Below are positions 4,214-42,285 of a stretch of 64,000 bases of DNA, in pieces (the stretch's first letter is position 1; the number at the start of each line of letters is the position of its first letter). The position numbers were made by a program, and so were the translations under genes. Below the pieces are notes generated by a model, which did not search any database, had not been told where the DNA came from, and worked only from the letters and a program-made list of their open reading frames with translations. Source of the stretch: Ktedonospora formicarum (lineage in GTDB: Bacteria > Chloroflexota > Ktedonobacteria > Ktedonobacterales > Ktedonobacteraceae); assembly GCF_016587355.1 (NCBI RefSeq), contig NZ_BNJF01000008.1, positions 62,001-126,000 of the forward strand. The letters run 5' to 3'.

Positions 4214-4334
4214 AGAACCCGGCAAGCGCTATGGAGATCAACTCTTTTGAGATAAGTGGGGAATGTGTTACGATCTTTCATGAACCTATGAGGACGCCAG
4301 TGCAGACCTTTTGTGTGTAACTGGGTAAGACACA

Positions 4335-7015: not shown

Positions 7016-7081
7016 TCCCACCCATTCCTAAGGATATGCAAACATGAAACATCCCAAACTTTGAAGGGATGAGATTGCAGA

Positions 7082-7142
7082 AAGAAACCTCCTGAGAGAA
7101 ACTGAAAGTAGGAACACTCATTTTCTCATCAGGAGGTTTCTT
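7082..7142 (+). promoter_or_regulatory. Hairpin that hides the transposase ribosome binding site
   Basis: Perfect 14-bp inverted repeat: AAGAAACCTCCTGA (7082-7095) pairs with TCAGGAGGTTTCTT (7129-7142), and the ATG starts at 7143. The AGGAGG lies inside the right arm. A transcript entering from outside the element would fold and block translation. A transcript starting between the arms would not. This is the known protection strategy of IS10/IS50-type elements; its operation here is inferred. Confidence 0.7.
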
Positions 7143-8468
7143 ATGTGGTCACAGTATGCCCTCTCTGAGAGAGAAAGGCAAGCTGGAGAGCAACTTTCGC
7201 AAGAAACGACTGGGCACCTTGTTACGCTCTTGACCCCTTTGCTGGAAGTGCTCGATACCTTGCTAGACACCTGCTTGGTCCGAACCCTTTTCGAGACCGT
7301 GCAAGCGCTCATTGTGTGGCGCGACGCTTCTAAGGCCATGCTGCTCAGTGAACTAGGAGCCTTTCTCGCGTCCCCAGCCCATGCTCCTGCTGGTACCAAG
7401 CGCCTGAGCCGCCTATTGCACTCTCCATGCTGGCATGCTCGTGTGATTGAACACTTTCTCTGGACCCAAGCCAGCCAAGCGATTGCATCCCTCAAGAGCC
7501 AAGGGGAAACGCCCCTGCTGGTGTGGGATGAGAGCGTGTTGGAGAAACCTGAGAGCCTTACCTTAGAAGGGCTCGGCTCAGTGCGCTCAAGCCAGGCTTT
7601 TATCAACCCCCTCGAGGCTCCATCTTCGTGCCAGGCATGCAATGGCTCGGGTTGCTGGTCGTAGGCATGAGCAGCCCTCCCGTGCTTGCCGCCTTGCAGT
7701 GGTGGACCAATCGCGGCCGCGTTCGCAGTCAAGCGACGTTGTGAGGAAGGATGGTGGCTGGGCAAATGCATGGCGGCATGGGGTCGTGAGGTGCTCCATG
7801 TTTTTGATCGGGGATTCGCTGGTGAACCCTGGCTCGAAGAGTGCAGGCAAGCAGGCATTCGCTTTGTCATGCGCTGGCCCAAGGACTACCACCTGCGTGA
7901 TGGGCAGTATCGGGAGCGTAGCGCCTGGAAGATCGCCCAGGGGAAGCGGTCCTGGGGGAAGCGAGCGCTGTGGGAGAGCCATCGACAGCAATGGTCTCAA
8001 GGAGGGGTCGTCGCATTGCCAGTGACCCATCCCCACGTTGGTGGACAGTTCTGGTTGGTGGTATCGCGTCCAGGCAAAGGACGGCTTCCCTGGTATCTGC
8101 TGACCAATGAACCCATCGAAACCGAAGATGACGCGTGGAGCATCGTCTTTGCCTATGCACGCAGGTGGCGCATTGAGATGGCGTGGCGCTTCACCAAGAG
8201 CGAATTGGGCTTCGAAAGCCCACGCCTGTGGGCGTGGGAGCCACGCATCAAGCTTTTGATGATCGCCAGCCTTGCCTTTGCCTTTCTGCTCTCCTTGCTT
8301 GAGGTTTCCTCCCAAGGACTTCGACAGGATCTGCTTGACCAATGGTGCCATCGTACAGGAAAGCGGCATCTGTTGGCACAGATGCCGCTCTACCGCTTGA
8401 GGGAGGCTCTCAGCTTTCTCTGGCTGGTCATTCCTCCCTCCATCCCTCCTTTTCAAAATTCGGGATGA
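7143..8468 (+). pseudogene. IS4-family transposase broken by a deletion and a frameshift
   Basis: The first 150 codons are in frame from ATG 7143 and include a first catalytic Asp (LLVWDESVLEKPESL). Near 7590 a short deletion joins VRSS to PGFYQPPRGSIF and shifts the frame. Near 7740 a second shift brings the reading into the frame that ends at 8468. That last part holds the second Asp (VLHVFDRGFAG) and the YREK-type signature of IS4 transposases (YARRWRIEMAWRFTKSELGF). All three catalytic regions survive in sequence, but no continuous product can be made. Confidence 0.85.
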
Positions 8469-8503
8469 TTCATGTCCTTCCTCTTGCACAGTGCCTTGCT
8501 CTG

Positions 8504-9367
8504 CTATGTGGACAGCAGAGCCCTGACGGTTTCCTGCTGCTCCGAGGTCATCTCGCCCAAGATGACCTTTCCCATCTGCTGCGGTGCCGACCGTACGGCC
8601 TCCGCAAGCTGCTCCGGGGTCAACAGTGGGAGCCACCTCTGCCGCTGTTCCCACGACATAGCCAGCGTAAGGTTGGCGACCTGTTGCGGGTTCAACTTCG
8701 GGAGCAGGGCTTCATCAGCCCGCTGGAGCATGGGCCGGAACCGCTCCAGCCCACCCAGCCGTGGGAGGGCATCTGCCAAAGCCAGCAGTACAGCCTGCTG
8801 CTGTTCTTCGGTCATCCACCCCAGCACGGTACCCTGCTCCTCCTCAGAGATGTTGGGCAGTTCACCTACCCACCACTCGGCATTTTGTCGCTCCAGTACG
8901 GCCTGCCGCTGTGATGGGGGAATGCCCTGCAGCCCCTCGACGTTAATGGTGATGACGAGAAACTCGCCAGCCCACCACTGCGTCGGAACCTCAGCGAACA
9001 CGGTCTCCCGGTGTTCGAACGGGATCAGCCGCAGTACGGTTTGCCGTTGGGCCCTGGGGACCTGTAGCAGCGCGTTGCCCCACCACGCGGGAGAAACCCG
9101 CGTGAATACGGCTTGGCGTTGTTGCTCTCCCATCAGTCGCAACAGGTGTTCCAGGTCCTCGAAGTTCTCCAAAGCGCAGAACATGTTTGCGACCTGCTGA
9201 TCCCCCAGCAGGCGCACCGGGTGGTGGGTGCCACAGCAGGCCAGTATTAGCTGGACCTGTTCGCCCGGCTGCAAGGAATGCAGAACGTGCTCCTGCTCGC
9301 CCGGAGGCAGCTTGAGAAAGTCTGCCATCTGGGCCTCGGTGAGCGGCCCGTTCCGGAAAGTACTCAT
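8504..9367 (-). CDS. Protein of degenerate helical repeats, function unknown
   Basis: The start is taken at ATG 9367 (a tandem ATG lies at 9370) because AGGGGAA stands just upstream. The 287-residue product has no signal peptide or membrane segment. It is built of about ten loosely repeated units of 22-30 residues with the pattern hydrophobic-x-x-E-Q-x-x-x-V-L, for example LPPGEQEHVLHSL, MGEQQRQAVFTRV, MTEEQQQAVLLAL, LTPEQLAEAVRSA and MTSEQQETVRALL. The pattern suggests an all-helical solenoid. MgtE-N-like or HEAT-like folds have similar L-x-P-E-Q helices, but the similarity is too weak for a name. It lies directly 3' to the IS4 element, tail to tail with it. Confidence 0.6.
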   Translation of the reverse strand: MSTFRNGPLTEAQMADFLKLPPGEQEHVLHSLQPGEQVQLILACCGTHHPVRLLGDQQVANMFCALENFEDLEHLLRLMGEQQRQAVFTRVSPAWWGNALLQVPRAQRQTVLRLIPFEHRETVFAEVPTQWWAGEFLVITINVEGLQGIPPSQRQAVLERQNAEWWVGELPNISEEEQGTVLGWMTEEQQQAVLLALADALPRLGGLERFRPMLQRADEALLPKLNPQQVANLTLAMSWEQRQRWLPLLTPEQLAEAVRSAPQQMGKVILGEMTSEQQETVRALLST

Positions 9368-9699
9368 CATTTCCCCTAGGAGTCGGAAGCATGACACTAG
9401 TAATCGACATGGTCTCTCCTTCTCAATGCCCTGCAGTAGCGCATCTCAAAGGGGTTCATCTTATAAGAGGCATGACCATTGCGCCTCTTCTGGCTCCACC
9501 AGCGTCCTCCGCGATGTCTCAACGATCAAGACGCGCGGGAATTCCAGCGGGATGAACCAAACCCGGTCACTCGATAGTGACAACCGATATTCACGTAATT
9601 TAGTATAGATCGGTTATTGGTGAAAAACAAGCTTATACTTTCCCTATTGAGGGAAGGTTAAAATCGGGATGACGCATGTTTATAAGACCCAACTACAGA
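9368..9699. other. Intergenic, upstream of the repeat protein
   Basis: Contains the presumed promoter of the leftward repeat-protein gene. No reading frame with a ribosome binding site and no strong palindrome was seen. Confidence 0.35.
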
Positions 9700-9861
9700 G
9701 GTATTGTCAACTTCATCAAAACTGTAGAGCTTACCTACGAGAAAAGGACCCAAAAGTGGGGATTGTGCCCTTTTTCTGGCCTTGATTGGTAGAAAATTAT
9801 AGCCCATTTGATCTCGAGGTGGTGAAAGCTCATCAACAAAATTTTTTAAGTTGACAATACC
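9700..9861. mobile_element. 162-bp miniature element with IS6-type ends
   Basis: The ends GGTATTGTCAACTT (9700-9713) and AAGTTGACAATACC (9848-9861) are perfect inverted repeats. The same end sequence flanks the IS6-type pseudogenes at 45210-46056 and 20157-20728. The interior contains no gene, so this looks like an internally deleted, non-autonomous derivative. No target duplication was recognised. Confidence 0.65.
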
Positions 9862-9985
9862 AACGGGGATGCTACGGCGCAAGACATATGAGCAGACGCA
9901 GATGAGCGGAGTAGATCTAGAGCCCTAGTTGGAGGGCTGGCAATCCAAGACGCTCGCGTCCCCTTCTCACGTATGGACGAGAGAG

Positions 9986-11322
9986 TTACCTCTCCTTCCC
10001 GTAAATAAGGGAGTAGAGGATGTTCCATAGGAGACTGAGGGAACCTATATACAGGTCGATAGTACCATCCTCCGACCCAGAAGAAATGTAATTCCCATTC
10101 CAGCAGACGCTAGCAACGGCCTGATGATGTCGGTGAGTGAACTTGCGTCGTCCAGTCCTTGAGTGCCAAGCCTGGACCGTGTGGTCCCGGGAACCTGAGA
10201 GGATCTGCTCTGATGGAAAGCAATATTCAGAATAATGATGAGGCTTATCCCAACAGACGGCAGTGACAGGATGGGTGTGACCGCGATAGGTCAATGTCCG
10301 ATCTCCAGTCCTGACGTCCCAAACCTGGACCGTGGTATCGTCGGAACCGGAGGCGATTCGGGTACTGTCAGGGGACCAGGCTAGAGCGTTGACCGTCTGT
10401 GGATGTTGCCAATAGGTGCAGGCTTCCACTCCTGTCTGTACCTCCCAGACACGAATCACCCCTTTGTGTTCGTTCGAGTTGTATCCTCCAGCAGCCAGAT
10501 ATTTGAGATCAGGAGACCAGTGCAGACAGGTCACCATCGTTGAGGGAGGAAGAAGATAGGTAGCGATCACTGTACGTTTATACGTTGAGAAGAGCTGGAT
10601 CTGATCGCTCTCTCCCCCAATGGCAATCTCATTGGCCATACTGATAGGAAAGCATTGAGCGTACCCAGCACGTCTTGCCGCTTCCGCAGCGTCGTGGCTC
10701 TCTTTGTGAGGAATGGGCTTGAAGGCTACAGCTTTGAGAGCGTAGGCAGGATAGGTTTGATACTTGATCGGCTCTCTCTCCCTAACAAACCAGGAAGGGT
10801 ATGTCCAGACATGCAAGCTCCCCCTTCATCGACGGAGGCCACAGAAAACATGGTAAAGTGAGAGCTGACCGCATTGACCGGGTGGGTATGCCCTTGGTAG
10901 AGGAAGGAATGTCCTGTGTTGAAACCAGAATGCGCGCAAACGTTCGTTCCATCCGTCACGAAGATGCCGCTGTATCCTGAGCCACTGAGCATCTCGAGAC
11001 TCTTTGGTGGATTCGTCTGGTGGATGGTATCAATCGTCCGCTTGGGGTGGAGCACAATCTGGGTCCTCCAGATCCAACCAATAGTTACCGAGAACAGGTA
11101 ATCCAAAGGGCTAATCTGGGTGCGCATGTCTTTGAGAAGACTACGTAGATACGGCATGTATTCCTCCTCATATCTTTTTACCATCTGCGAGTTGACACAT
11201 ACGGCGCAGTTCAATCCATCCTTCCTATAAGAAGGAATTCCGAGCATATGCGCTGCTTGCTCCGTCACTTTTTGGAATGCTTCAACGGCTCTTCCCTCCT
11301 CCTCGCATCGCTTCCCACGCAC
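9986..11322 (-). pseudogene. WD40-repeat protein, single-base frameshift
   Basis: Two overlapping frames make one protein. The 5' part (11322 to ~10820) has an unrecognised N-terminal region of about 125 residues and the start of a first WD repeat (YQGHTHPVNAVSSH). The 3' part continues from LHVWTYPSW to the stop at 9986. They join if the run of five C at 10820-10824 (five G in the coding strand) had six: the text then reads DEGGSLHVW. The 3' part carries at least five WD units, best seen in VNALAWSPDSTRIASGSDD, TVQVWDVRTG and the RGHTHPVTAVCWD unit. No kinase or other catalytic domain is visible. Because the coding sequence is otherwise clean, a sequencing error or slippage is a serious alternative to true loss. 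Confidence 0.75.
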
Positions 11323-11699
11323 ACTCCTACGCCTCCTCTCTCATCACCCTATCACAATTCCGCCCCTCCCTCGCCAGTTGCGTACCCTGCCCTTGGGAGC
11401 CCTACGCTCGAAAGATACAAGCACTTACGGGCCGCTTTCCCTATGCTAGCACGTGTAGAGATCCTGAAGCAACTCTCCTTTTGTATATGCTTGATCTCCT
11501 TGAGAGGAGCAGCCGCAAATGCAGATGTGCAGCGAAGAAGGCCATGTGTATCATTGTGCAGAACTGAGAAGAGTAGCCTGCTCGGCTCTGCACAGACAAT
11601 GGGACGCTCTGAATGGCAGTGATGCAGGAGGCAGAACCTCTGGAGCGAATTGAAGATGCTGGCGTGCGATCTCTTCCTGGCCAGCGTTGGTCAGTTGGG
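11323..11699. other. Intergenic, no gene recognised
   Basis: Several short open frames occur on the + strand, but none has a ribosome binding site or recognisable motif. The region separates the WD40 gene from the first miniature element. Confidence 0.35.
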
Positions 11700-11818
11700 A
11701 ATTTGGGAATTCAGTGAGCGGGGATTTTGGCAATGAGGTGAGCGGGTCTTCCCCGAGAAAGAGAACAGGTCACTCACCAATGTATCAAAGATTCCACCCA
11801 TGGAATTCCCAAATTCAC
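11700..11818. repeat. Miniature inverted-repeat element, TGTAAATTTGGG family, copy 1
   Basis: Runs from AATTTGGGAATTCAGTGAGC to GGAATTCCCAAATTCACA, so its ends are inverted repeats. The internal text GTGAGCGG occurs twice. It is nearly identical, in opposite orientation, to 12821-12944 on the other side of the secreted-protein gene. Confidence 0.75.
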
Positions 11819-11931
11819 AGATATGCGCCCAATTCGCAGCGATTGTAGCGTTTTTAAGATGGGCATAGGCTAGACTCCTCATTCAAACGAGGGTCATCAT
11901 ACGACGAACACGCTTCGAGCAAGGAGATCTT

Positions 11932-12750
11932 ATGATGCTCCCACACATTTTGACGAAAAGGGCACGTTTTTCGCTTCTTTTGCTTCTTAGTTTCTTTCTT
12001 GCTGTAAATTTCGCTCTTTCTTACTCTACTACTGCACGAGCCTCGGGAGGGGGACGAGATGAGAATATCTGGTACCTGAATGCCAATGGGTATGTCGACT
12101 ATCTGTACCTGACACTTCCCTGGTATGGGGGAGAAAACGATGTTCTTTTTTCTTCAGGTTCAGTGTTTGGGCAATGGGTCCAAAGTCAGGCAGAGAGACA
12201 GTCAGATGGAACGACCCGTATAGACTTTATCATTTTATCCACTCGCGATAGTGGTTACGCCGATTACTTTAATGTGTATCATGGAGTGCAATCGGCTGAT
12301 GGGCAATCGATGCATGGGACATTCAATGTCTATACAGGGAGCAAAACATACTACTTTCCTCTTCGTAAATATATCTATTCGTATGCGATGGCACCGGAAA
12401 CCCATCCCTGGGCTGCTACCTTTGTTGGCATGCAGAATAGTAGTTTCGAAACTGGTCATAGCTGGTCTCTGACAAGTGAGGGGCCAAATGGAACGTTGGA
12501 TGCGGCTCCAGTCGATGCGCTCAGTTTCGGTTGGGCAGTCAATCAACCCATCATCGGTTTTATCCCCTTGCCATCCTCCTGTGATTACTGTCCTATGTAC
12601 TTTATTCGAGCCACTTCAAGGGATTGGACGACGATGGAAATCTATCAGGGATACGGTGGGACAACAACAATGTATGGCTCCTTTGTCGAATTCAGTGGAG
12701 ATCATTCTTTGGGGTATCAGAATGATTGGGAGGCTACCTACCTGAGATAA
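11932..12750 (+). CDS. Secreted protein of unknown function
   Basis: Starts at tandem ATGs at 11932 behind AAGGAGATCTT. Residues 1-38 are a typical Sec signal peptide: basic (LTKRARF), hydrophobic (LLLLLSFFLAVNFALS), then a likely cleavage at TARA-S. The mature part (about 234 residues) is rich in Tyr, Trp, Gly, Ser and Thr, with repeated beta-strand-like patterns (IWYLNANGYVDYLYLTLPWY, FIILSTRDSGYADYFNVYHG). It has one Cys pair (SSCDYCPMYF) that could form a disulfide. It looks like an all-beta extracellular protein; no enzymatic motif is evident. It is a single gene framed by inverted copies of a miniature element. Confidence 0.7.
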   Translation: MMLPHILTKRARFSLLLLLSFFLAVNFALSYSTTARASGGGRDENIWYLNANGYVDYLYLTLPWYGGENDVLFSSGSVFGQWVQSQAERQSDGTTRIDFIILSTRDSGYADYFNVYHGVQSADGQSMHGTFNVYTGSKTYYFPLRKYIYSYAMAPETHPWAATFVGMQNSSFETGHSWSLTSEGPNGTLDAAPVDALSFGWAVNQPIIGFIPLPSSCDYCPMYFIRATSRDWTTMEIYQGYGGTTTMYGSFVEFSGDHSLGYQNDWEATYLR

Positions 12751-12820
12751 AAGTGGTTGTTGGGCTCTGACGCGCTCTTGTTACTTGGTGGCGAAGTCGA
12801 CTTTCACACACACCTATACC

Positions 12821-12944
12821 TGTAAATTTGGGAATTCCATGGGTGGAATCTTTGATACATCGGTGAGTGACCTGCTCTCTTTCTCAGGGAAGACCCGCTC
12901 ACCTCATTGCCATAATTCCCGCTCACTGAATTCCCAAATTTACA
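12821..12944. repeat. Miniature inverted-repeat element, copy 2 (inverted relative to copy 1)
   Basis: A perfect 17-bp terminal inverted repeat: TGTAAATTTGGGAATTC at 12821-12837 and its complement at 12928-12944. Interior text (GGTGGAATCTTTGATACAT, GGTGAGTGACCTG) matches copy 1 read backwards. Confidence 0.8.
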
Positions 12945-13126
12945 CCCTAAATGTGAATGATGATCCAATTTTAGCCAATACGACCAACGTCTCAAGCGTC
13001 CTGGTGAATCCAGGATCGCGACCATCTTGCAAAACAAATGGAAGGGAACATCCGTGAATGCTGCTTTCTGCCCACAAATCTGCTTTCTCCGGTGCCTTGA
13101 TTCCATTCCTCAACCTCGTCAGTTTC

Positions 13127-13285
13127 TCATTGATGGGTTTGTAGGACTTGACATAGAAAGCCTTTCTTTCCCTCTACGATCTGCTTCACCCGCTTTCGAC
13201 TCATTCCTTCCTCTTTCGCAATCTGCCGTTGACTCTCCCGCTCAACATACTATGCTCTTCGGACCACTTCCCACTCTTCTCCTCC
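13127..13285 (-). pseudogene. IS21 IstA-like N-terminal helix-turn-helix remnant
   Basis: The minus strand reads EEWEVVRRA, a TAG stop, then YVERESQRQIAKEEGMSRKR and VKQIVEGKKGF before a TGA at 13127. This matches the N-terminal DNA-binding part of IS21 IstA transposases (W-x-x-[IV]-R-x-x-x-x-V-E-x-x-S-x-R-x-I-A). The rest of istA and istB is absent. Confidence 0.6.
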
Positions 13286-13286
13286 C

Positions 13287-13624
13287 GATGACACTTTACA
13301 CCTCTTTCATCTATTGAAACATATCTCTCCTCTAAAGATACTCAATCTTCTTTTCCTTGGTAACCCTTTCTTATTATTTCCTCTATTTCCATGCATCCCT
13401 ATGCATCTATCCCTTCCACCATCGTGGCTCCCCTCTTTCTCATTTCTCCTCTCGCCCATAGCCCCATATTTCTCCTTCTCTCTTCTCCTACTTACGACCG
13501 CATGTCCTTACAGGTTTGTCTGTGGCTCCTTTTCTTCTCACTCCCATTGGTTCCCTCTCCTCTTGCCTCCTTTTCTTTTCTCATTCGGAACCATTTGCCT
13601 CCCTTTTCATTTATCAACAACAGG
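13287..13624. repeat. Dispersed pyrimidine-rich repeat, copy B
   Basis: Aligns with copy A at 2819-3162 over the whole length, same orientation, with small gaps. Conserved blocks are TTTCATCTATTGA, CTCCTCTAAAGATA, CCGCATGTCCTTACA and a terminal CATTCGGAACCATTT ... TTATCAACAACA. Confidence 0.7.
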
Positions 13625-13663
13625 ACTACGCGCGCAAAGGGAAAGGAGAGCGGAATCCCGCTC

Positions 13664-14293
13664 TTATGCGTTTTCCTCCTTTTTATAAAAGCAACGCTTC
13701 ATTAAATCCAAATACCTATCCCATTCTTTCAACTGCTCCACATTGAAATCTTCAGAAGAATGTACTTGATCACTTTGTTGCTCTGCAAAACCGAGTGCAG
13801 TCCAATTAATGATATTCATTGCTTTTTCAATATCAATATCGTCACGAAATTTTGTGACATCTATATTTCTGCACATTCTTTCAAAACCATTATCGAGGAC
13901 AAATTTCTTCATTCTTTTATCAATTTCAGATTTTACTTCGAGGGCATTCTCTTGGGCAATAGCTTGAAGAAAATCAAATGCCTGCGGAAATCTATTATAC
14001 ATTTTGAATTTAGTAGATGCTATTTCCTTAAATCTTTTAAAAATATCTGTTTCATCCCAATCCAGCTCATCGTAGATTTTCTCAATAAAATCAGCTATAT
14101 AATCAAGCAAAAATAAATACAATTCCTTTTTATTATGAAAATAGTTGAATAACGAACCCTTGGCTATATTCGCTTCTTTAATAATCTCATTGGTAGAAGC
14201 TCTCTCATAACCACTACGCGCAAACTCTTTAATAGCTGCTTTGATAATACGTTCTTTCTTCTCCGGTTCTAAACTAGAAAATTTCGGGTACAT
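13664..14293 (-). CDS. TetR/AcrR-family transcriptional repressor
   Basis: A 209-residue protein with the TetR N-terminal helix-turn-helix at residues ~12-58 (IIKAAIKEFARSGYERASTN, EIIKEANIAKGSLFNYFHNK). A divergent all-helical ligand-binding domain follows. It is markedly richer in A/T and Lys than its neighbours, which suggests acquisition from a lower-GC, perhaps Firmicute, donor. The promoter at 14342-14370 carries two palindromes of the form TGACC-ANNNT-GGTCA. The same double site precedes the next gene downstream in the same direction (14514-15500), so this repressor most likely controls itself and that gene. The inducer is unknown. Confidence 0.88.
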   Translation of the reverse strand: MYPKFSSLEPEKKERIIKAAIKEFARSGYERASTNEIIKEANIAKGSLFNYFHNKKELYLFLLDYIADFIEKIYDELDWDETDIFKRFKEIASTKFKMYNRFPQAFDFLQAIAQENALEVKSEIDKRMKKFVLDNGFERMCRNIDVTKFRDDIDIEKAMNIINWTALGFAEQQSDQVHSSEDFNVEQLKEWDRYLDLMKRCFYKKEENA

Positions 14294-14320
14294 GATAACC
14301 GCCTTATTCCTTTGTTAATA

Positions 14321-14370
14321 TGACCACTTCGGTCATTTCTTATTCTATATGAAGCGATCAAAGTGGTCAA
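14321..14370 (-). promoter_or_regulatory. Promoter and double operator of the tetR-type gene
   Basis: On the minus strand -35 TTGACC (14370-14365) and -10 TAGAAT (14347-14342) are separated by exactly 17 bases. One imperfect operator (14355-14369) overlaps the -35. A perfect TGACCACTTCGGTCA (14321-14335) lies just downstream of the -10, over the start point. Operator centres are about 34 bp apart. The same layout is found at 15524-15572. Confidence 0.8.
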
Positions 14371-14513
14371 GAGCATTGTAGAAACAGTGTTCCTTTCTAA
14401 AAGGTCTGTTTCCATCTCTGAGGAAACTGCAAATAAGGCGGAACTACGGAATGCCCTCCCACTTTTTCGGGCTCGCTCCCGCGTTTCGTCCCACCTGACC
14501 AACCGTCATCCAA

Positions 14514-15500
14514 TCACATCTCTCCGATTCGCGTGCCATCAAACGGGAATGAGCCCACTCCGCTGATCTTGGCTGTGCCTGCAAGGAAGTCGCCCTCGAT
14601 CGTCCCATCCCATGTGATGGTTACTTGATACGGTTTCGTCATGACAGTCGTGAACATCACCTGATGCCCGTGTACCTTCCCCTCTGAGATTGGCACAGTG
14701 ATGCCTGCGGTCTCATTGGTAAGCGAGCCGGATAGTCCTCCCCTCATCACGATCACGAGCTGGAGTTCCTGCGTTGCAGCTGGGTGATAAAATTTCAGGT
14801 GCCACGTCCCGCTTGGTTTCGCCTCTGCTGGTGCTCCGGCCGTGGAGGTGCTGGCCAGCATTTGGGAAGGCACAGGTGCCTTGTAAGACATCCCCTGGCC
14901 GAGTCGGGGACGCCCAGGCTCGGACTGCACCCCTAGCGAATTCAGGAAGCCGGCGTTCATTCGATAGAAGCCAATCAGCACCAGCAATTCGATGATCTCA
15001 CCCTCGTCATACGTCGCGGAAAGTCGCTTCCACGTCTTCTCTGAGGCGCACTCGTCTGCACAGAGGTCATCGACTAAGTCCAGTACCGCCGTTTCAGCTT
15101 CGGGCCATGAGCCCGTACCTTTTGCAAGGAATGCAATCTCGGCGGCGGTTATGCCAACACTGAGGGCTCCGGGAACGTGGTTGGCCCACTCGTACTCGCA
15201 AGAGGAGCGGAGTGCGACCCGCAAGATCAGCAGTTCGCGTGTTCGCATGGATATCCGCCCTCCGGTCGTGAGGTGCGCTCCAAACTCCAGCCAAGCAGTC
15301 ATCAAGTCTCCACGGCGCGCAAGCATCCGAAGGACGTTCGACGCTCCAATACCAGCCACCGCGCGCTGATCTTCCGACAGCGCGGACACATCCACCAGCG
15401 GAATACGGGGCTCCGTTGGTCGCTTAATTCCCCCTCGCCCATGCCCTACATTCGCTGGTGTCGCATCGCCGTCCGCTTTGTTCTTCATTTCATCTTCCAT
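14514..15500 (-). CDS. Carboxymuconolactone-decarboxylase-like protein with C-terminal beta domain
   Basis: The start is taken at ATG 15500, behind GGAAGGAAAACCTC; an upstream in-frame GTG would place operator DNA inside the protein. Residues ~35-200 are an AhpD/CMD-type helical domain. They include RMLARRGDLMTAWLEFGAHL, ISMRTRELLILRVALRSSC and the signature C-E-Y-E-W-A-N-H. The usual AhpD CxxC is replaced by a single Cys with a following His, as in gamma-carboxymuconolactone decarboxylases. After a linker rich in Ala/Ser/Thr, residues ~235-329 form a beta-rich domain (GTWHLKFYHPAATQELQLVI ... FPFDGTRI) that I do not recognise. Its promoter shares operators with the neighbouring TetR gene. 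The reaction is unknown; a peroxide- or aromatic-compound-related role is an inference. Confidence 0.75.
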   Translation of the reverse strand: MEDEMKNKADGDATPANVGHGRGGIKRPTEPRIPLVDVSALSEDQRAVAGIGASNVLRMLARRGDLMTAWLEFGAHLTTGGRISMRTRELLILRVALRSSCEYEWANHVPGALSVGITAAEIAFLAKGTGSWPEAETAVLDLVDDLCADECASEKTWKRLSATYDEGEIIELLVLIGFYRMNAGFLNSLGVQSEPGRPRLGQGMSYKAPVPSQMLASTSTAGAPAEAKPSGTWHLKFYHPAATQELQLVIVMRGGLSGSLTNETAGITVPISEGKVHGHQVMFTTVMTKPYQVTITWDGTIEGDFLAGTAKISGVGSFPFDGTRIGEM

Positions 15501-15523
15501 GAGGTTTTCCTTCCTTCGCAAAA

Positions 15524-15572
15524 TGACCACTTTGGTCATTTTTATTCTACACGAAATGACCACTTTGGTCAA
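15524..15572 (-). promoter_or_regulatory. Promoter and double TetR-type operator of the CMD-fusion gene
   Basis: On the minus strand -35 TTGACC (15572-15567) and -10 TAGAAT (15549-15544) have a 17-base spacer. TGACCACTTTGGTCA occurs perfectly at 15557-15571 (over the -35) and at 15524-15538 (just past the -10). The arrangement matches the tetR promoter at 14321-14370 base for base in design. Confidence 0.85.
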
Positions 15573-15941
15573 GGGCATAGTAGAGAATATGTGTTCTAGT
15601 GTGTTCTAATGCATACCACCCGCCAATGGATTAGCACTTCTAGCTATTACGGCATATTTGAGGAGAATGGGGCGTTTTCTCATGCATATGAAATCTTTCA
15701 GCAAGATCGGAGAAATTTTTTCGAGGCGCGCGAGTAAGCTAGAGGTGTTGCCAGAACCAAGGAGAGCCATGTTCTGGCTCTGACGCACCTAGCGGGGGAG
15801 CTGACCTCTGGCAAACGAAGACAGAGATACTTTGACAAACAGGGGGGGCTATAGTTAGTTTTATATTTTCTAGACTTATATAGTTAAATAGGTACAAATA
15901 TGCCAACTTGCCTCTATCTTCTTGCAAAAATGATGATTTTC
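15573..15941. other. Intergenic, no gene recognised
   Basis: AT-rich sequence between the CMD-fusion promoter and an IS6 element. One open frame of 60 codons on the minus strand lacks a ribosome binding site and similarity. No other structure was seen. Confidence 0.35.
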
Positions 15942-16783
15942 GGCTGTGTTGCAAAAACGGAGAGGGGAACACAAAGGATGGGGCTTCACCATTGTGCTGC
16001 TGTGTTTTAAATGGTCATTCCGAATAATTCCGCAATGAATGTCACTTGCCCTAAGCCGCCTCCTTTGCGCACTCCTTGCATTTGTCCTTTTCTTATCATA
16101 TTCATCACTTCATATCCCTGTAATGTTCTCCATGCTGTTTGAAACGAAAAGAAGCCCAATCCAGGTTTGACCAGCCGTTTGATGAACCGATGATCTTGTT
16201 CAATCAAGTTATTGAGATATTTGCACTGGCGAAGTTCGCACGTCTCTGGTAGACCCCTTGTTGTTTGTATTTCCTGAAGAGCTTTGGGATATGCTGCGTT
16301 TTTGTCCACCGTGATCACGCGAGGAGTCACCGTGTGGGAGGCCCCAAGGGCTTTCAGGAAAAAGCTCTTGGCTGCCTGAGTATCGCGAGTGGCGCTCAGA
16401 TGGAACTCTAGCGTGTTTCCCTGAGAATCCAGTGCGCGGTACAGGTACATCCACACGCCCTTCACCTTGACATAGGTCTCATCGACCCGCCAGGAATCAT
16501 TGGTGCCCGCCAGATGAGGCCGACAGCGCTTCTCCAACTCAGGAGCGTCGCACTGCACCCATCGATAGATCGTGGAGTGATCTACCTGGAGGCTCCGTTC
16601 CCGCATCATCTCCTCCAGATCCTGATAGCTGAGCGCGTAAAGCAACTACCAACGCACGCTCAGTAAAATGATCTCGGCTTGGAAGTGACGCCATTTGAAT
16701 GGGTGCTGCTCCGCCATGATTGGTCCTCTTTTTCTTCTTTTCTCACCATTCTGACAGATCAGCTTTCTTTTTGCAACACAGCC
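15942..16783. mobile_element. IS6-family insertion sequence with both ends
   Basis: The ends GGCTGTGTTGCAAAAA (15942-15957) and TTTTTGCAACACAGCC (16768-16783) are perfect 16-bp inverted repeats. The 842-bp length fits IS6 elements. The flanking 8-mers (TGATTTTC / CAACAGGT) are not duplicated, which is common after IS6 replicon-fusion events or later deletion. The transposase inside carries a stop. Confidence 0.85.
16007..16717 (-). pseudogene. IS6-family transposase with an early amber codon
   Basis: From ATG 16717 the frame reads MAEQHPFKWRHFQAEIILLS and VRW, then TAG, then LLYALSYQDLEEMMRERSLQ to the stop at 16007. The remaining 212 codons are intact and contain the DDE triad: WRVDETYVKV, VITVDKNAAY and the Glu in NNLIEQDHRFIKRL. 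Only the stop at the position of a usual Tyr separates it from a complete transposase. Re-initiation downstream could give a protein lacking about 30 N-terminal residues. Probably inactive. Confidence 0.85.
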
Positions 16784-16889
16784 CAACAGGTGGCCCCCAT
16801 CACCACAAGTTGACAATCCCTCCCATACCTACCGAAAATTGGGTTACAGAAGTTATTTTTCCAATCAAATTCTCATTTTGAGGTGATAT

Positions 16890-16901
16890 ATAGATATCTA
16901 T
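16890..16901. promoter_or_regulatory. Palindrome upstream of the flavin operon
   Basis: ATAGATATCTAT is a perfect 12-bp palindrome in an AT-rich tract about 110 bases before the first gene of the electron-transfer operon. It may be an operator; no regulator gene is adjacent. Confidence 0.35.
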
Positions 16902-17011
16902 CGTATCTCTGTCTCGCTAGTGATAGACTTCTATGCCTGTAGAAGGAGTGGAAGGCTAAGCTTGTGGCAGAGAGAGTTGTGAAAGGAAAATTGTGATAAG
17001 GGTTAGACAGG

Positions 17012-17497
17012 ATGAAAAAATTCACGCTTGCGGCTCTCATTATAGTAGCCTTTATTCTCTATAGCCTCCTTTACAGGCATTCAAATGATGCAGCTATCGT
17101 ACCAAATAGTGTAGCTACTTCAAAATCCTCATCAAGTTCGTCCTCTACTGGCACTGCAACGACGACACCTAATGTGACCACAACACCAGATGCGACAACC
17201 ACACTTGGTGCTCTCTATAAAGATGGCTCCTATACAGGGAGCGTTGCGGATGCCCACTGGGGCAATGTACAGGTCAAAGTCGTGATCCAAAACGGCAAAA
17301 TAACTGATGTATCGTTTTTACAATATCCTAACGAACGGAGTCGATCAGTAATGATCAATGAGTATGCTGATCCCCAACTCTCCAGCGAGGCGATTCAAGC
17401 TCAAAGTGCCAATGTTGATATTGTAACAGGAGCGACTGATACCAGCGAGGCGTTCATGCAATCACTCGCTGACGCTCTCTCCCAAGCAAAAGGATAA
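17012..17497 (+). CDS. Exported FMN-binding-domain protein (covalent flavin carrier)
   Basis: A 161-residue protein. Residues 1-22 are an uncleaved or signal-type membrane segment (KKFTLAALIIVAFILYSLLY). Residues 30-65 are a Ser/Thr-rich spacer. Residues ~66-160 are an FMN_bind domain as in RnfG/NqrC (YKDGSYTGSVADAHWGNVQV ... KITDVSFLQYP). The flavinylation motif DIVTGATDTSEAF is near the C-terminus; in this family FMN is linked by a phosphoester bond to the Thr of the GAT (Thr142 here). The domain would sit outside the membrane. It is followed after two bases by apbE, the enzyme that attaches the FMN, and then by a membrane flavoprotein reductase. Together they should pass electrons across the membrane to an external acceptor. 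Domain assignment is confident; the terminal acceptor is unknown. Confidence 0.88.
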   Translation: MKKFTLAALIIVAFILYSLLYRHSNDAAIVPNSVATSKSSSSSSSTGTATTTPNVTTTPDATTTLGALYKDGSYTGSVADAHWGNVQVKVVIQNGKITDVSFLQYPNERSRSVMINEYADPQLSSEAIQAQSANVDIVTGATDTSEAFMQSLADALSQAKG

Positions 17498-28238: not shown

Positions 28239-29281
28239 TCAGGCCAACGCCACCAAATTTCTGGCGGCGTTAGCGTCTCGATCTAGGGCACTTCCACACT
28301 CCAGGCAGGCAAAGACCCGATCAGAGAGCGTCAGCGCCTCATTGATCCAGCCACAACACGAACAGGTTTTTGAAGAGGGTTCCCAACGGGAAGCCAGCAG
28401 CACCTTGATCCCTGCCTGTTCTGCTTTGTAGAGGATCTGCCGCTTGAACTCGTACATCCCCACATCGGCGATGGCTCGGGCCAACTTGCGGTTCTTGAGC
28501 ATACCTGCAATATGCAAATCCTCGAGGACGATCACACGCGGCCGCTCTTGATCGGGCGCGGATTCTCGCCACGATCTGTGCGGTCGCTTGGTGCAAGGCG
28601 TTTTGGCGAACATGGGCGATACGAGCGTGCATCCGGGCAAGTCGCATGCGCGCTTTCTGGCGATTGGCACTCCCTTTGTGCTTGCGACTGTGACGTCGCG
28701 AGGCTCGCTTGAGGGCGGGAATCTTCTTGCGCAATGCCTTGGGATTCTCGAAGGTCCGTCCATCAGAAAGCGTTGCCAGCATTTTTACCCCCAGGTCAAC
28801 GCCAATGGCTTCGCCTGGGGCTGGTCGTAGACCTTCTTCTTCCTCTCCCAGAAGTGGTAAACCATCTGCATGGGACGCATGGTGCACACAGATCGACACA
28901 GACCATCTGCCAGCTTTCTCGCTGATGGTTGCGCTAGTGATCTTGACAGTGGTGGGCAAATAGCCATGCTCTTTGAGCCGAAGGACTCCCAGGCGAGGGA
29001 CCTGGATAGCATCATGAAAGACCCGAATGGTGCCGGTGAAGCGGCATCCTCCAATGGCTTTCTTCCGGCTTTTGAAGCGGGGATAGCCACACGTGCCTTT
29101 CCATGTGCCCTCTTTCTTGAGCCGGCACTTGCGAAAAAAGTGCTTGAAGGCCTGATCCAGATCGCGTAGCGCCTCCTGGAAGGCGCATTTGCTGACCTCA
29201 TACGCCCAAGGAATCTCACTGTGCTTCAAAGCATTGATCTCGCGATGCAGATCAATGGCGCTTGGGGTGGGCTGACCTGCT
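28239..29281 (-). pseudogene. tnpB: tnpB RNA-guided nuclease gene, 5'-truncated and frameshifted
   Basis: The minus-strand text starts, directly at the boundary with a miniature element, with TKAGQPTPSAIDLHREINAL and runs through SEIPWAYEVSKCAFQEALRD. It covers the beta-barrel/Rec part, the first RuvC motif AIGVDLGVKMLATLSDGRTF and the KHKGSANRQKARMRLARMH helix. Near 28560 a frameshift moves reading to RPRVIVLEDLHIAGMLKNRK (RuvC-II Glu). Then follow the zinc finger (KTCSCCGW ... FACLECGS) and RuvC-III DRDANAARNLVALA, ending at 28239. About 60 N-terminal residues are missing. No tnpA is nearby. Confidence 0.88.
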
Positions 29282-34927: not shown

Positions 34928-34980
34928 CCATCTTCTCGTCCGGCACGGACGTTCTCTTTCAGTGTCGGACGAGAAGATGG
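34928..34980. repeat. 15-bp inverted repeat downstream of the telomere-resolvase gene
   Basis: CCATCTTCTCGTCCG (34928-34942) is perfectly complementary to 34966-34980. Inside, CGTCCG-GCA-CGGACG forms a second small palindrome, so the core hexamer occurs three times. It lies 50 bases beyond the end of the protelomerase-like gene. It is a possible terminator for that gene or a recognition site. Confidence 0.6.
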
Positions 34981-35029: not shown

Positions 35030-36874
35030 TCAATGTGAGGAAGCTTCCTCTTCTTCAGGCTTCCCCCAGGGGAACGAGGTCGGCTCCTCAGCGATGTGGA
35101 TCATCTCCGTGATGGGTTCGGGCTTGCGGTTGAATGAGGGCTTAATCTCCAGGCGCGCATGATGCGCCTTAATCTCCTCCTCATGCGTTTCGAGATAGGC
35201 ATTGATGGCTTCCTTGCGCCCACCAACCAGCTTCTGGATCGCAAGCGTGGTAATATACCAGCGCTCCAACGGACGGCGCGTCTCATTCCACTGCATGAGT
35301 GTATGCACGGCCCGACGATAGCGCTCATTCCCTGCTTCAGGAGCCTTCATTCCCGCCAGTTTGGACGTAGGCATGGCGCCGTAGCGTTCGCTGTCGTGTC
35401 GCCTCGCCTGGCTGCGCAGATGGCGTGCCTCCCGCTCCCCTGCCGCAACAAGATAGGACAAGAGATCGGACGTTCCCGTCTGGGCCATCCCTTCCCGTAA
35501 GAGGGCAGCCGTCTCTGCTGGGAGATTGAGGTGCTCTAGCGACAATGAGACCTTCCCATCCTGACGCACCACGCTGCCCTGCACTTGCTCCCCCAGGCGC
35601 TCCTGCTGCTCATAGGCCGCAAAGGCGCGGCGCAAGAGTTCATCATCCTTCACCTCACGCTTGACCTGGCGAGCAATCTCTTCCCGTAGATCATCACCCC
35701 AGGCTCGCGTCTGAATCGTCGGCTTGAACGTCGAATATCCTGTCTTGTTCTCTTTGGCCGCCTTCTTTCGCCCTTTCTTGAGCATGATCACAGGGTGAAG
35801 CTGTTCTGGGTGCGTGCTCTCTGCCCATGTCATGTACTCCTTGTGGAACACATCAAGCACCGTGACACCAGGCTGCCCTAACCGTACGCCCTGGCGTCCG
35901 TCAATGTTGCCATCCTTGTCGGCAATCTTATAATCCGCATAGTTGGCATGGCTGGCATAATTGAGGCGGATCTTCTCCACCTCTTCAGGTGGAGTCCCGG
36001 CTTCTACTCGTGGCTCCAAGACAAACCGATGGCCCTGAATTTGTGCCATATACGTGATGTCGGCCACTGGTGGAGGCGCGTACCAGAAGCAGGCAATGCG
36101 GGCATACATCCCTCGGAAGTTATGCACACTCACCTTCTCGCGCGTGGCTCGCACCAGCTCCTCCAGGTCCCCATATCGGCGTTCGACGGCCTCGTTCACC
36201 GCCTTGCCATACTTCTGACTCACCTGCTCGATCTCCAGGTCTGTGGTGTCTACCAGGGCGCGTAACCGCTGTACCGCCTCGACCACCAGGAACGCTCGCA
36301 CCAGGGTTGGGATCTCATAGCGTTCTGGCTCCCGACCACGTCCTTTCACCTGCCCCTCAAACCACACCGTATACGCCTCCTTCACCGTGAAACGTCCCGT
36401 CTTCATGATCTCGGCCAGCCGCCGACCCGTACACACGGCAATCCCCACCACCAGGTCGGCCCACTCCGGCGAAAAGAGCAAGGACAAGGCTCGCTCCACC
36501 AGCGCATCGGGGTCTTTGAGCAACACTTGCTGCGTGAGTCGATCCTGCGTTACGCCCTGCGTACGCGCATTCATCTGCACCCACTCCCCTTCCGAGAGGT
36601 TGAAGACTCGCAGCCCGATATGTTCTGGCTCCCCCGTCCGGGGATTCTCCCAGCTATTCTCCTGCGTCAAAGGCAACAGGCGGATCAAATGGCGCACCTG
36701 CGTGATCGGTTTGCGCAATGAATCACCCGCCAGTCCCCGCTCGCTCTTCCACCAGTTCAGTTCACGCTCCCACACCTCTCGCAATTGCGTCTCCTGCGCC
36801 ACTGTGGCACCGCTCACCACTGGCTCCAAGACCTCACTCCAACGCCGCTGCACCCAGCCTAAAATCGCTGCCAT
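35030..36874 (-). CDS. Telomere resolvase (protelomerase)-like tyrosine recombinase
   Basis: The ATG at 36874 follows AAGGAGGAGAGAGG, giving 614 residues. The central ~200 residues match the catalytic core of hairpin-telomere resolvases (TelN, TelK, ResT). Arg sits in GIAVCTGRRLAEIMKTGRF. Lys sits in VWFEGQVKGRG exactly 25 residues later, the Arg-Lys spacing recalled for TelK and ResT. YEIPTLVRAF follows. Arg is in SVHNFRGMYARIA, His in YMAQIQGHRF, and the nucleophile is one of the Tyr residues in NYASHANYADYKI. Large N- and C-terminal domains surround the core; the C-terminal ~250 residues are charged and helical. These enzymes cut a palindromic site and seal each end as a covalent hairpin, maintaining linear replicons. 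No neighbouring replication genes are visible. The alternative is an unusual integrase; I favour resolvase. Confidence 0.72.
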   Translation of the reverse strand: MAAILGWVQRRWSEVLEPVVSGATVAQETQLREVWERELNWWKSERGLAGDSLRKPITQVRHLIRLLPLTQENSWENPRTGEPEHIGLRVFNLSEGEWVQMNARTQGVTQDRLTQQVLLKDPDALVERALSLLFSPEWADLVVGIAVCTGRRLAEIMKTGRFTVKEAYTVWFEGQVKGRGREPERYEIPTLVRAFLVVEAVQRLRALVDTTDLEIEQVSQKYGKAVNEAVERRYGDLEELVRATREKVSVHNFRGMYARIACFWYAPPPVADITYMAQIQGHRFVLEPRVEAGTPPEEVEKIRLNYASHANYADYKIADKDGNIDGRQGVRLGQPGVTVLDVFHKEYMTWAESTHPEQLHPVIMLKKGRKKAAKENKTGYSTFKPTIQTRAWGDDLREEIARQVKREVKDDELLRRAFAAYEQQERLGEQVQGSVVRQDGKVSLSLEHLNLPAETAALLREGMAQTGTSDLLSYLVAAGEREARHLRSQARRHDSERYGAMPTSKLAGMKAPEAGNERYRRAVHTLMQWNETRRPLERWYITTLAIQKLVGGRKEAINAYLETHEEEIKAHHARLEIKPSFNRKPEPITEMIHIAEEPTSFPWGKPEEEEASSH

Positions 36875-37228: not shown

Positions 37229-39089
37229 GGGTGCGGCAAGTTTTTTTGCGTTGAGCGTGATCCAGGGAAGAACGTGGTGCTACAAGAGAACCATCGGCAA
37301 AACGACAGCAAGAGAAGGAGCACCAATGGATGAACAAGCTTGGCAGGCAAAGAGTGTCGAGATCCTGACGGAGATCAAGGAGTGGCGACAAGCGCATCCC
37401 CAAGCCACCTTTGTGGAAATCGAAGAGGAGGTGCATGCTCACCTGATGGAACTGGAAGCTCACATCTTGCAAGATGCGGCTTCGGCGAGCGAGCGCCGAG
37501 CATGGGGCCAATCGACGGGCACACCTGCTCCGTTGTGCCCCACCTGTGCGCTTCCTCTGCAGGCACGAGGCCAGCGAGAGCGAACGCTGCACGGCAATGG
37601 AGGCCAAAGCGTGACCTTGAAGCGAAACTATGGCATCTGCCCCAGATGTGGGGCCGGTCTTTTTCCCCCTCGATGAGGAGCTCGGGCTGCTGCCAGGCCA
37701 TCTGGCGCTCCGGCAACAAGAACACCTGACGCACCTGGCATGCTTCATGCCCTTCGAGAAAGCCGCTCAGATGCTTGAAACGCTCCTCGGAGTGCGAACG
37801 ACCAAGGAGACCGCCCGTTCTCTGACCGAGCGCATGAGTGCCTGCATGGAAGTAGCCTACGCTGCTGACAATGAGGCCCCCTCCTTTCCTCCTCTCACTG
37901 ATCAGCCTGCTCCACAACGGTATGTCCTGAGTGCTGATGGGCCATGATTTCTCTGGTCCACAAGCAGTGGGCCGAAGTACGTACTCTGGCCATTGGAGAA
38001 CCTCACGTAGGACCGGATACTGATGGTGAACCGGAGATCCATGTGGGGCGCCTCTCGTATGTGTCCCGTCTCTGTGATGCCTTCACCTTTCTCCAACATG
38101 TCGCAGGGGAGATCCGACGGCGCAAGGTTCTGGAGGCGAGGGAAGTGTGTAGCGTCACCGACGGAGCCGAGTGGTGTCAAAACGTAACGGCGAGCTATCG
38201 ACCTGATGCCTTGCGCATCTTGGATTTTCCGCATGCAGCAGAACACCTGAGCCAGATGCTCGAAACCTTGGAACATGCTGGCGTGCGTTTTCCTGATCGC
38301 ATGCTGGAGCGCTGTTTACATGTGCTCAAGCACCGAGGACCTGGTGCGTTGCTGCGCATGGCAGGCCGATTGGAGAGCGATCTCATGCAGCAAAAGGGGA
38401 TTGGGGAACATCTGGACTACCTGCGCAAGCGTGAGGCGTTGATGCAGTATCCAGCTTTTCGCGCACAGGGCTGGCCCATCGGCTCAGGCATGGTGGAAAG
38501 TGCTAATAAACTGGTCGTGCATGCCCGTCTGAAAGGATCGGGCATGCATTGGCTGCGTAGCCATGTCAATCCCCTGCTAACCTTACGCATGGCCGTGTGC
38601 AATGACCGCTGGCAGGAGATGTGGCAAAAGGCCATCCGTCAGCAACACATGGGGGACGCATGCCAACGCAGTGCCATTGCTGAGTCTGAGGTCCAAGCTT
38701 CCCTGACAGGAACCTCTTCTCCTTCGGTTTCCGCCCTTCCCCTCGTTGCTCCATCGAGGCCTCGCGCGCTTCCTCCTGAGCCTCCGTCACACGCAAAGGC
38801 TGCCGCTCCTCCTCTCACGCCCCTTCCACCGGTCCATCCCATCCTCCCGTCTCCTTCTCCCCGTCCTCCCGCGCATCTACAGGTCCCTGTTGCCCCTCAA
38901 CAGTCAGATACCTGCCCCTGTGGGATGCCGCTGATCCGCTTCAAGGGACACCGCACCAAGGAGTACTGTTCTCATCGGTGTCGCCAACGGGCGTACTGTC
39001 AGCGGCAAGCGATGAAGCGCTGGGAACAATGGAAATCGATCGTGTCCTTCTGATCAGGAGAGGCTCAGCGCAAAAAAACTTACCTCCCC
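37229..39089. mobile_element. ISKra4-family insertion sequence
   Basis: The left end GGGTGCGGCAAGTTTTTTTG (37229 onward) and right end CAAAAAAACTTACCTCCCC (to 39089) are imperfect inverted repeats sharing AAGTTTTTTTGCG. One broken transposase gene lies between them. The right end abuts the stop codon of the convergent gene at 39089. Another copy of the left end lies inverted at 40119-40142. Confidence 0.8.
37326..39053 (+). pseudogene. ISKra4-family transposase with two single-base frameshifts
   Basis: From ATG 37326 (behind AGAAGGAG): MDEQAWQAKSVEILTEIKEW, then a zinc-ribbon-like CPTCALPLQ ... YGICPRCGAGLFP. One extra C in the five C at 37665-37669 shifts the frame; it continues LDEELGLLPGHLALRQQEHL to VLSADG. 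One G too few at 37939-37941 shifts again; it continues AMISLVHKQWAEVRTLAIGE to 39053. The last part contains the DDE text SVTDGAEWCQNV, RILDFPHAAEHLSQML and SGMVESANKLVVHARLKG. A Pro-rich linker and a second Cys cluster (CPCGMPLIRF ... YCSHRCRQRAYC) follow. All domains survive; only the two indels prevent translation. Confidence 0.88.
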
Positions 39090-40852: not shown

Positions 40853-40900
40853 GATGACTTCTCGGCAGAGAAGTCATCCGTTCAGACGGCCAGCCGTCTG
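40853..40900 (-). ncRNA. Twin hairpins at the tnpB 3' end (candidate guide-RNA region)
   Basis: GATGACTTCTC and its complement form an 11-bp stem with loop GGCA (40853-40878). CAGACGGC and its complement form an 8-bp stem (40883-40900) overlapping the tnpB stop. On the minus strand both lie at the end of the gene, where tnpB elements encode the scaffold of the guide RNA and the transposon right end. A terminator role for the first hairpin is an alternative. Confidence 0.5.
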
Positions 40901-42117
40901 GGGAGTACTGCCGCTCCCGCTACTCCTCGCCCCACTTGCAAAGGGTCGGAGCTACTTTTGCGCAAGATGTTGTAGGATCCGTTGAGATCGGCATGGATGA
41001 GGCGTCCATCCCCGGCGCGATACCAACTGCGAGCCACACGCTTGCCTGAGAACACCTGCTTCTCAGCCGCGCTCGCCTCATAGGATGGGATGGGATCGCC
41101 ATCCGGATAACTGGCCTTGCTGGTGTAACTTTCCTCTTGAAGAATGACCCTGATCCCAACCAGCTGCGCCTTGTAGGTCAACTGCTCAAGAAAACGGGCA
41201 TGGGGAAGCTGCACAAACTGCTGGTTGTTCCTGCGCCCCAGGCGCACCTCCTGTTTCCACAAGGGGTTCTTGCCTATTACCAGCGTCCCGATGCCTTCGC
41301 TCACCAGCAGATCAATGATCCGACGGCTGGCCGTGTGCAGATACCCATCCACACGGCGATTGCGCTTCGTCGTCACACGATCCAGGTGCCGCGAGGTCCA
41401 TCGCTTCTCATGCGCGAGGCGTTGCTGCTGCTTGGCACGCTCTTTGTTGTAGCCCTGATTGAGGCTTTTGAGAGGTTTGCCACTCACCAGGCGAGGCACA
41501 AAGCCGGGCTTGTCGCTGGTGATGGCGGCGAGTACATTGACGCCCACATCCACGGCGGCTCGAAGCGCTGGGTTGACCGCAGCCGGTTGGATCTCCCGCT
41601 CATAGACGACCTCCACCATGTAGCCATCAGCGCGTGCAATGATGCGAACCTGGCGGATAACCTCCCAGGGGAGTTGGGTCGCGATCTCGATGGGCAGTCC
41701 CGATGGAACCAGTGTGCCTGTGCGCTTGAAGGCCCTCTTGCCCAGGGCTTTCTTCTCGTAGACGAGCAAGAAGCGGCCCTTGGTTTTGTCGAGATAGCCA
41801 GGGATTTTGGGGCGTCCGATGAAGGCGGTGGGGTCTTGGCGGTATGCCTTCATGCCTTCAAAAAAGCCCCTCCAATTGTGGTGAAGCGCAATGAGGATGG
41901 CGTTACTGACCTTGCGAGGGAGGGCACAATAGGCGTCATGGTGTTTCAAGCGGTGGAAGATGGCAGGGTAAGGGAGATAGGTTCCCTCATGAAGGAAGGC
42001 TTGTCGGACGTGGTAATTGGCCTGGTTATACAGGTTTTTGGAAGCAAAGGCCGCCTGATCGATGAGAGCAAAGCGGGCATCATGCTGGCGAATGAGATGT
42101 CGTTCGACCAACTGCAT
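40882..42117 (-). CDS. tnpB: TnpB-family protein with VIGKN in place of the RuvC-II Glu
   Basis: The ATG at 42117 follows GGAGGCCACCAG; a GTG at 42168 is in frame but has no site. The 411-residue product has the N-terminal OrfB helix-turn-helix part (NLYNQANYHVRQAFLHEG), RuvC-I Asp in RAAVDVGVNVLAAITSDKP, and RuvC-III Asp in GRLIHADLNGSYNILRKSS. RuvC-II reads GTLVIGKNPLWKQE, where most TnpB proteins have V-x-E-D/N. The zinc-finger Cys pairs are absent; instead EESYTSKASYPDGDPIPSY occurs. This variant is recurrent among TnpB proteins, and EESYTSKAS probably supplies a relocated catalytic Glu. There is no tnpA partner. Intact frame. Confidence 0.85.
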   Translation of the reverse strand: MQLVERHLIRQHDARFALIDQAAFASKNLYNQANYHVRQAFLHEGTYLPYPAIFHRLKHHDAYCALPRKVSNAILIALHHNWRGFFEGMKAYRQDPTAFIGRPKIPGYLDKTKGRFLLVYEKKALGKRAFKRTGTLVPSGLPIEIATQLPWEVIRQVRIIARADGYMVEVVYEREIQPAAVNPALRAAVDVGVNVLAAITSDKPGFVPRLVSGKPLKSLNQGYNKERAKQQQRLAHEKRWTSRHLDRVTTKRNRRVDGYLHTASRRIIDLLVSEGIGTLVIGKNPLWKQEVRLGRRNNQQFVQLPHARFLEQLTYKAQLVGIRVILQEESYTSKASYPDGDPIPSYEASAAEKQVFSGKRVARSWYRAGDGRLIHADLNGSYNILRKSSSDPLQVGRGVAGAAVLPRRLAV

Positions 42118-42285
42118 CTGGTGGCCTCCTACCTTTGCAGCACCACATCCTTCAAGTCGATGGGTCACTTGCGTGTCATTTTCTAGAAGAACATGTTTTC
42201 CAATACCACTCTACCAGAGATGTCTCCAAGTGTCAACAGCTGACATGTTTTCTTAAAAACGTTTCTCACACCCCAGAGCGCCTCT

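Follow-up and report, generated by a model that had tools for sequence, protein, structure and literature searches.

A probable telomere resolvase gene in Ktedonospora formicarum and candidate hairpin telomeres of linear replicons in Ktedonobacteria

A stretch of 64,000 nt from Ktedonospora formicarum (hereafter, the window) contains, on the minus strand at positions 35030-36874, a gene that very probably (with a probability of about 0.86, in our estimate) encodes the telomere resolvase of hairpin-ended linear replicons. Hairpin telomeres are textbook features of Borrelia, of the Agrobacterium chromid and of a few phages and plasmids; they now also seem to cap the main chromosomes of a class of Chloroflexota whose members have genomes of 7-14 Mb and life cycles like those of actinomycetes. 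Linear replicons in Ktedonobacteria are described in two genome papers, one of which also reports terminal inverted repeats, and neither mentions the words "telomere" or "hairpin". The window gene would give these linear replicons their missing enzyme, together with a testable target sequence; as far as the accessible literature shows, the enzyme and the telomere sequence behind them are new.

According to the mechanism that we propose, replication would pass through each hairpin of the linear replicon, leaving an inverted-repeat junction to which a resolvase dimer would bind. Residue Tyr312 would then cut near the axis, and the strands would be folded back and resealed to give two hairpin ends. 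Catalysis by the window protein is predicted from its conserved residues, and linear hairpin-ended chromosomes are supported for its relatives in the class.

The window gene and its product

The open reading frame is real and, read from the ATG at 36874, codes for 614 aa. An alternative GTG start at 36931 would add 19 aa (633 aa in total), but we favor the ATG because the ortholog from Ktedonobacter sp. SOSP1-85 (90% identity) begins at the matching codon. The only Pfam match of the product is to the catalytic domain ResT-TelK_cat (PF16684, E=1.5e-34), scoring 119.5 bits where the cut-off is 27, which is far above chance; it covers residues 120-283 (36026-36517, minus strand; 139-302 in the 633-aa reading). 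The Agrobacterium TelA equivalog model (NF052462) gave only 32.4 bits, below its cut-off of 800, and the protein is thus a member of the TelA superfamily and not TelA itself.

A search of the PDB with the single sequence returned protelomerases only, and a profile built from 12 members of the class retrieved TelA (8e-22), TelK (6e-16) and ResT (1e-8), and no others. An AlphaFold model made from the same 12 class sequences had a mean pLDDT of 76.5 and a pTM of 0.45, a value that plausibly fits several loosely placed domains. Foldseek comparisons with this model ranked TelA (1.9e-11), TelK (1.2e-9) and ResT (2e-6) well before Cre (1.2e-3), with modest TM-scores that likely reflect a multidomain protein; the predicted fold thus appears nearer to TelK, TelA and ResT than to Cre or lambda integrase. 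The identification as a telomere resolvase-like gene, made in a preliminary description from the nucleotide sequence, is therefore upheld by the sequence profile and by the searches of solved structures and folds. Judging from its sequence, the gene belongs to the telomere resolvase family. It also appears to be in use and under purifying selection, the dN/dS ratio against the SOSP1-85 ortholog being 0.10 (dS 0.66); a similar value, 0.11, separates the two telomeric copies of the genome brp13.

Catalytic residues

The catalytic set of TelA comprises R255, K286, Y363, R366, H394 and Y405 (PMC3558466), and five of these six positions agree in the window protein (all on the minus strand): Arg152 (36419-36421) corresponds to TelA Arg255, the R255A mutant chains in the PDB aligning at this column; Lys177 (36344-36346) to Lys286; Arg254 (36113-36115) to Arg366; His282 (36029-36031) to His394; and Tyr312 (35939-35941), the predicted nucleophile, to Tyr405. 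These five residues align with their counterparts in TelA, N15 and the cyanobacterial members, Lys177 being invariant in 22 of 22 aligned resolvases, and Arg254 and His282 being found both in the class and in wider resolvase alignments. The sixth position, Tyr363 in TelA, is occupied by His251 (36122-36124), also present in seven cyanobacterial relatives. All six residues, including Arg152, are invariant in the 12 class sequences.

The motifs quoted in the preliminary description are all present (TGRR, with R151 and R152; H251-x-x-R254; GH282; and the tyrosine cluster), and Lys177 lies exactly 25 residues after Arg152, the spacing it had reported. The cluster comprises Y306, Y312 and Y315, of which only Y312 is kept in all 22 aligned resolvases, phage N15 TelN included, where it aligns with the conserved tyrosine of the cyanobacterial and phage proteins. 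It had also been proposed that a long distance between the histidine and the tyrosine might reflect a rearranged active site, a proposal that the sequences do not support: the interval, of 30 residues in the window protein and 20 in brp13, is a loop that varies in length and precedes an invariant tyrosine.

Resolvase genes at the ends of Ktedonobacteria replicons

The resolvase domain was found in nine of 47 genomes of the class, belonging to four genera, and a sample of 400 genomes from the phylum yielded the same nine carriers and no others. Among 14 control genomes, the only match to PF16684 above the cut-off was in Synechococcus elongatus. In the carriers, the resolvase genes are concentrated at the ends of replicons: all eight domain hits of brp13 (AP024096, one 8.88-Mb contig) are within 44 kb of an end, two contigs of D. 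aurantiacus each have a resolvase 7.7 kb in from either end (four ends in all), and several contigs of SOSP1-85 and K. robiniae break off inside a resolvase gene or shortly after it. The same two contigs of D. aurantiacus have been called linear, with 10.9-kb terminal repeats, in the literature. No resolvase domain was detected in the contigs of Tengunoibacter (5,303,167 and 2,396,690 bp), a genus whose replicons are circular according to the literature.

The preliminary description suggested that a resolvase in this background would imply linear replicons in Chloroflexota, and specifically a linear hairpin-ended replicon here. The former is borne out in relatives, by terminal palindromes next to resolvases (see below), by the resolvases at all four ends of the two D. 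aurantiacus contigs and by the lack of the domain in Tengunoibacter; the latter would be a prediction for the window's own contig, where the gene is 97 kb inside and has no telomere beside it.

The resolvase in the terminal repeat of D. aurantiacus (6906-8576 of the end, with matching copies at the other three) has an open frame, reads TGRGIVE and has no GQxK; from these residues, it is probably inactive. Because the D. aurantiacus copies do not possess the equivalents of R152 and K177, some members of the class appear to be dead.

Terminal palindromes with a shared half-site

At the left end of brp13, the first 5598 bp form a palindrome that is perfect (100%); at the left end of Ktedonosporobacter rubrisoli (CP035758), the palindrome spans the first 13.6 kb and is 99.7% perfect. 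Long reads that continue around a hairpin would be expected to give terminal palindromes of this kind, and we infer from this indirect sign that these Ktedonobacteria replicons have hairpin ends. Only kilobase palindromes were accepted as telomeres, because short, nearly perfect ones (40-90 bp) occur frequently close to the ends of contigs. In both genomes a resolvase gene reads toward the replicon end, and the palindrome axis is found 333 bp (brp13) or 402 bp (K. rubrisoli) downstream of its stop codon; the right end of brp13 falls ca. 33 bp short of the equivalent axis point.

Outward from the axis, the telomeres of brp13 and K. rubrisoli read AATTCATAGTATTACGTGATGG and ACACAATAGATACACGTGACGA, respectively, and have in common the half-site ATAG-N4-ACGTGA, with ATAG at positions 6-9 and ACGTGA at positions 14-19 from the axis. 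This match has a P of ca. 2e-4 by shuffling and of 2e-3 by a plain binomial, and concerns two independent telomeres only. Palindromic contig ends can be PacBio missed-adapter artefacts, but such artefacts do not explain a motif shared by two genera 333-402 bp past a resolvase gene. A search of 12 genomes with the palindrome pattern, allowing 0-2 mismatches, gave no site beyond those of brp13 and K. rubrisoli; a site with three mismatches in the Tengunoibacter genome was discarded as due to chance. The half-site was not found in the ends of cyanobacterial plasmids.

Other features of these ends were recorded. The K. rubrisoli axis is TATTGTGT/ACACAATA, and a perfect 28-bp inverted repeat with a 19-nt loop is situated between this axis and the resolvase gene (left-end positions 7000-7074). 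The 10-mer TATTGTGTGC occurs both in the telRL arm of N15 (35-90) and in the telomere arm of brp13 (2824-2833), at different distances from the axis, and this coincidence may be due to chance.

The chromosome record of K. rubrisoli

A second copy of the palindrome is internal to the 11.34-Mb chromosome of K. rubrisoli (3,475,977-3,476,014), within an inverted repeat of more than 11 kb that is nearly identical to the left end. The GC skew, calculated from forty 20-kb samples, is negative to ca. 1.45 Mb and positive to 3.46 Mb, with the exception of one near-zero sample at 3.40 Mb; it is abruptly negative from 3.7 Mb and becomes positive from ca. 8 Mb to the end. There are, therefore, two minus-to-plus switches and one plus-to-minus switch, the latter at the internal palindrome (3.476 Mb), a pattern that fits two linear replicons with internal origins. 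Both strong dnaA genes are in the larger part of the chromosome. Because the internal palindrome coincides with the flip in GC skew, we read this record as two joined replicons, and it probably consists of a 7.86-Mb chromosome and a second linear replicon of 3.47 Mb that were mis-joined at their hairpins. We offer this as a correction to the K. rubrisoli chromosome record.

Genomic context of the window copy

The window lies in C8, a 332-kb contig of an assembly of 10.67 Mb in 15 contigs, from a genome that shares its genus with K. racemifer, K. robiniae and SOSP1-85. Scans of this genome showed that the window gene is the only intact resolvase copy of the assembly, the others being broken or partial. 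One of these, at the extreme end of contig C11 (1-1775), is broken into several frames, either truly or by sequence error at the contig end, and its pieces are 59-86% identical to the telomeric copy of K. rubrisoli; by analogy with that copy, a telomere would lie at a distance of ca. 450 bp from this contig end. At its left end, C8 starts inside the beginning of another resolvase gene, followed by ATPase and transposase genes, and looks subtelomeric there. All the contigs of the genome stop before the telomeres.

No long telomere-like palindrome or half-site was found near the window gene or elsewhere in the window, and no ATPase or transposase partner accompanies the gene there. A perfect 15-bp inverted repeat with a 23-nt loop (34928-34980), read in the sequence 50-100 bp past the resolvase stop codon, is possibly a transcription terminator. 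The gene is surrounded by insertion sequences, including a neighboring ISKra4-type transposase gene (37944-39053, plus strand; NCBIfam NF033572, E=6.1e-39, a match below the model cut-off), which argue for rearranged DNA in its surroundings. Two OrfB_IS605 (TnpB-like) genes, at 28339-29229 and 40882-42168, flank the resolvase region. The neighbors tested within ca. 8 kb code for an FMN reductase, a luciferase-like enzyme, a phosphotransferase, a hydrolase, a regulator and transposases.

The window gene forms a clade with genes of SOSP1-85, T. hazakensis and D. arantiisoli (support 100/100), spanning three genera, and comparison of their surroundings revealed only the gene itself and transposase-like matches in common. 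The simplest reading of these data is that the window copy is a resolvase that was shifted inward by rearrangement and retained for action in trans, in which case it would act on the telomeres of its own genome.

A terminal module and alternative explanations

At the end of K. rubrisoli, the resolvase gene is followed inward by genes for an AAA ATPase and a Mu-type DDE transposase. This module is transcribed toward the replicon end. Either whole or in a decayed state, it recurs with gene order and orientation unchanged in the window genome itself (contigs C11, C8 and C5) and in D. aurantiacus, D. arantiisoli, K. robiniae and SOSP1-85, and two modules are stacked in SOSP1-85 (contig C1) and in D. 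arantiisoli (contig C109). The spans of the module in end segments were 7192-12184 (K. rubrisoli), 1-4586 (C11), 3214-12572 and 11720-17497. Away from the internal palindrome, 38 samples of 20 kb from the interior of K. rubrisoli contained none of the three genes. Although frequent, the module is not obligatory, because the intact outermost resolvases at the brp13 telomeres adjoin unrelated genes, without ATPase or transposase.

One could imagine that the resolvase, the AAA ATPase (TniB/MuB-like) and the Mu-type transposase form a telomeric transposon that adds itself to replicon ends, the window gene being a copy left stranded by an old insertion. We consider this possible but rather doubtful, and in any case as an extension of the resolvase interpretation, not as an alternative enzyme activity. 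The end-directed trio in fixed order in several relatives and in the genome's own contigs, its stacking in SOSP1-85 and D. arantiisoli, its absence from the interior samples of K. rubrisoli and the insertion sequences around the window gene speak for such an element; on the other side are the terminal resolvase of brp13 with its unrelated neighbors, the lack of partners for the window clade, both in the window and next to the gene of T. hazakensis, and the fact that no convincing transposon end repeats or target duplications were identified in the terminal module. In a fuller form, which is tentative and a little more doubtful still, the hairpin telomere would be mobile: the module would carry its own telomere, transpose onto ends and stack while inner copies decay, thereby maintaining main chromosomes with hairpin tips and sizes of up to ca. 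8.9 Mb. To our knowledge, this size exceeds that of any known hairpin-ended replicon. The module would represent, in bacteria, a counterpart to the upkeep of telomeres by transposons. Going by its title and by its citation in PMC12669027, a recent work (Hsieh et al., Science 2025, doi 10.1126/science.adp1973) describes transposition genes at telomeres in bacteria with linear replicons, and to that extent the Ktedonobacteria module resembles the telomeric transposons reported there; its novelty is uncertain.

The two readings that would instead set aside a host telomere resolvase are much less probable. Phage protelomerases are related to the window protein with 28-31% identity, and the gene could accordingly be part of an integrated linear plasmid-prophage of the N15 type. 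We find this very unlikely, since the nearest relatives outside the class are proteins from cyanobacterial plasmids (35-40% identity), no relative was found in IMG/VR, and the neighbors tested include no phage gene. Least probable of all is an ordinary tyrosine recombinase, of the Cre, Xer or phage integrase type, merely resembling a resolvase: it would share the same catalytic fold, and the histidine at the position of TelA Tyr363 is the usual residue in tyrosine recombinases (PMC3558466), but the only family that Pfam recognizes is that of the resolvases, and the best structural matches are resolvases, Cre being ca. eight orders of magnitude weaker. A telomere resolvase thus remains our preferred identity for the window protein.

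Comparison with known telomere resolvases

In the phylogenetic tree, a single branch (support 92/97; recovered in 90% of bootstrap trees) sets the sequences of the class off from the rest, with those from cyanobacteria next and those from phages apart. The closest relatives outside the class are plasmid proteins annotated as "protelomerase family" in the cyanobacteria Leptolyngbya sp. NIES-3755 and Chondrocystis sp. NIES-4102, whose identity to the window protein extends over the catalytic region and which have the same catalytic set, including the equivalent of His251. Some of these plasmid records were deposited as linear; however, the cyanobacterial proteins are plasmid-borne and not located at the ends of multi-megabase chromosomes, and they fall outside the Ktedonobacteria clade.

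Agrobacterium TelA (PDB 4dwp, 4e10 and 4f41) is the best solved structure both by profile and by fold, and its residues R255, K286, R366, H394 and Y405 all have equivalents in the window protein, which differs in having His in place of Tyr363, a longer loop between the catalytic His and Tyr and ca. 170 more residues overall. TelA serves a linear chromid in a host whose main chromosome is circular (PMC13293297). TelK (2v6e), N15 TelN and the proteins of VHML and phiHAP-1 belong to the same family as the window protein. The target palindrome of N15 adjoins the gene, as it does in brp13 and K. rubrisoli, although it is situated 5′ of the gene in N15 whereas the axis is 3′ of the gene in the two Ktedonobacteria. 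Borrelia ResT (8vs5) shares family and fold with the window protein, and is its most distant solved relative by sequence.
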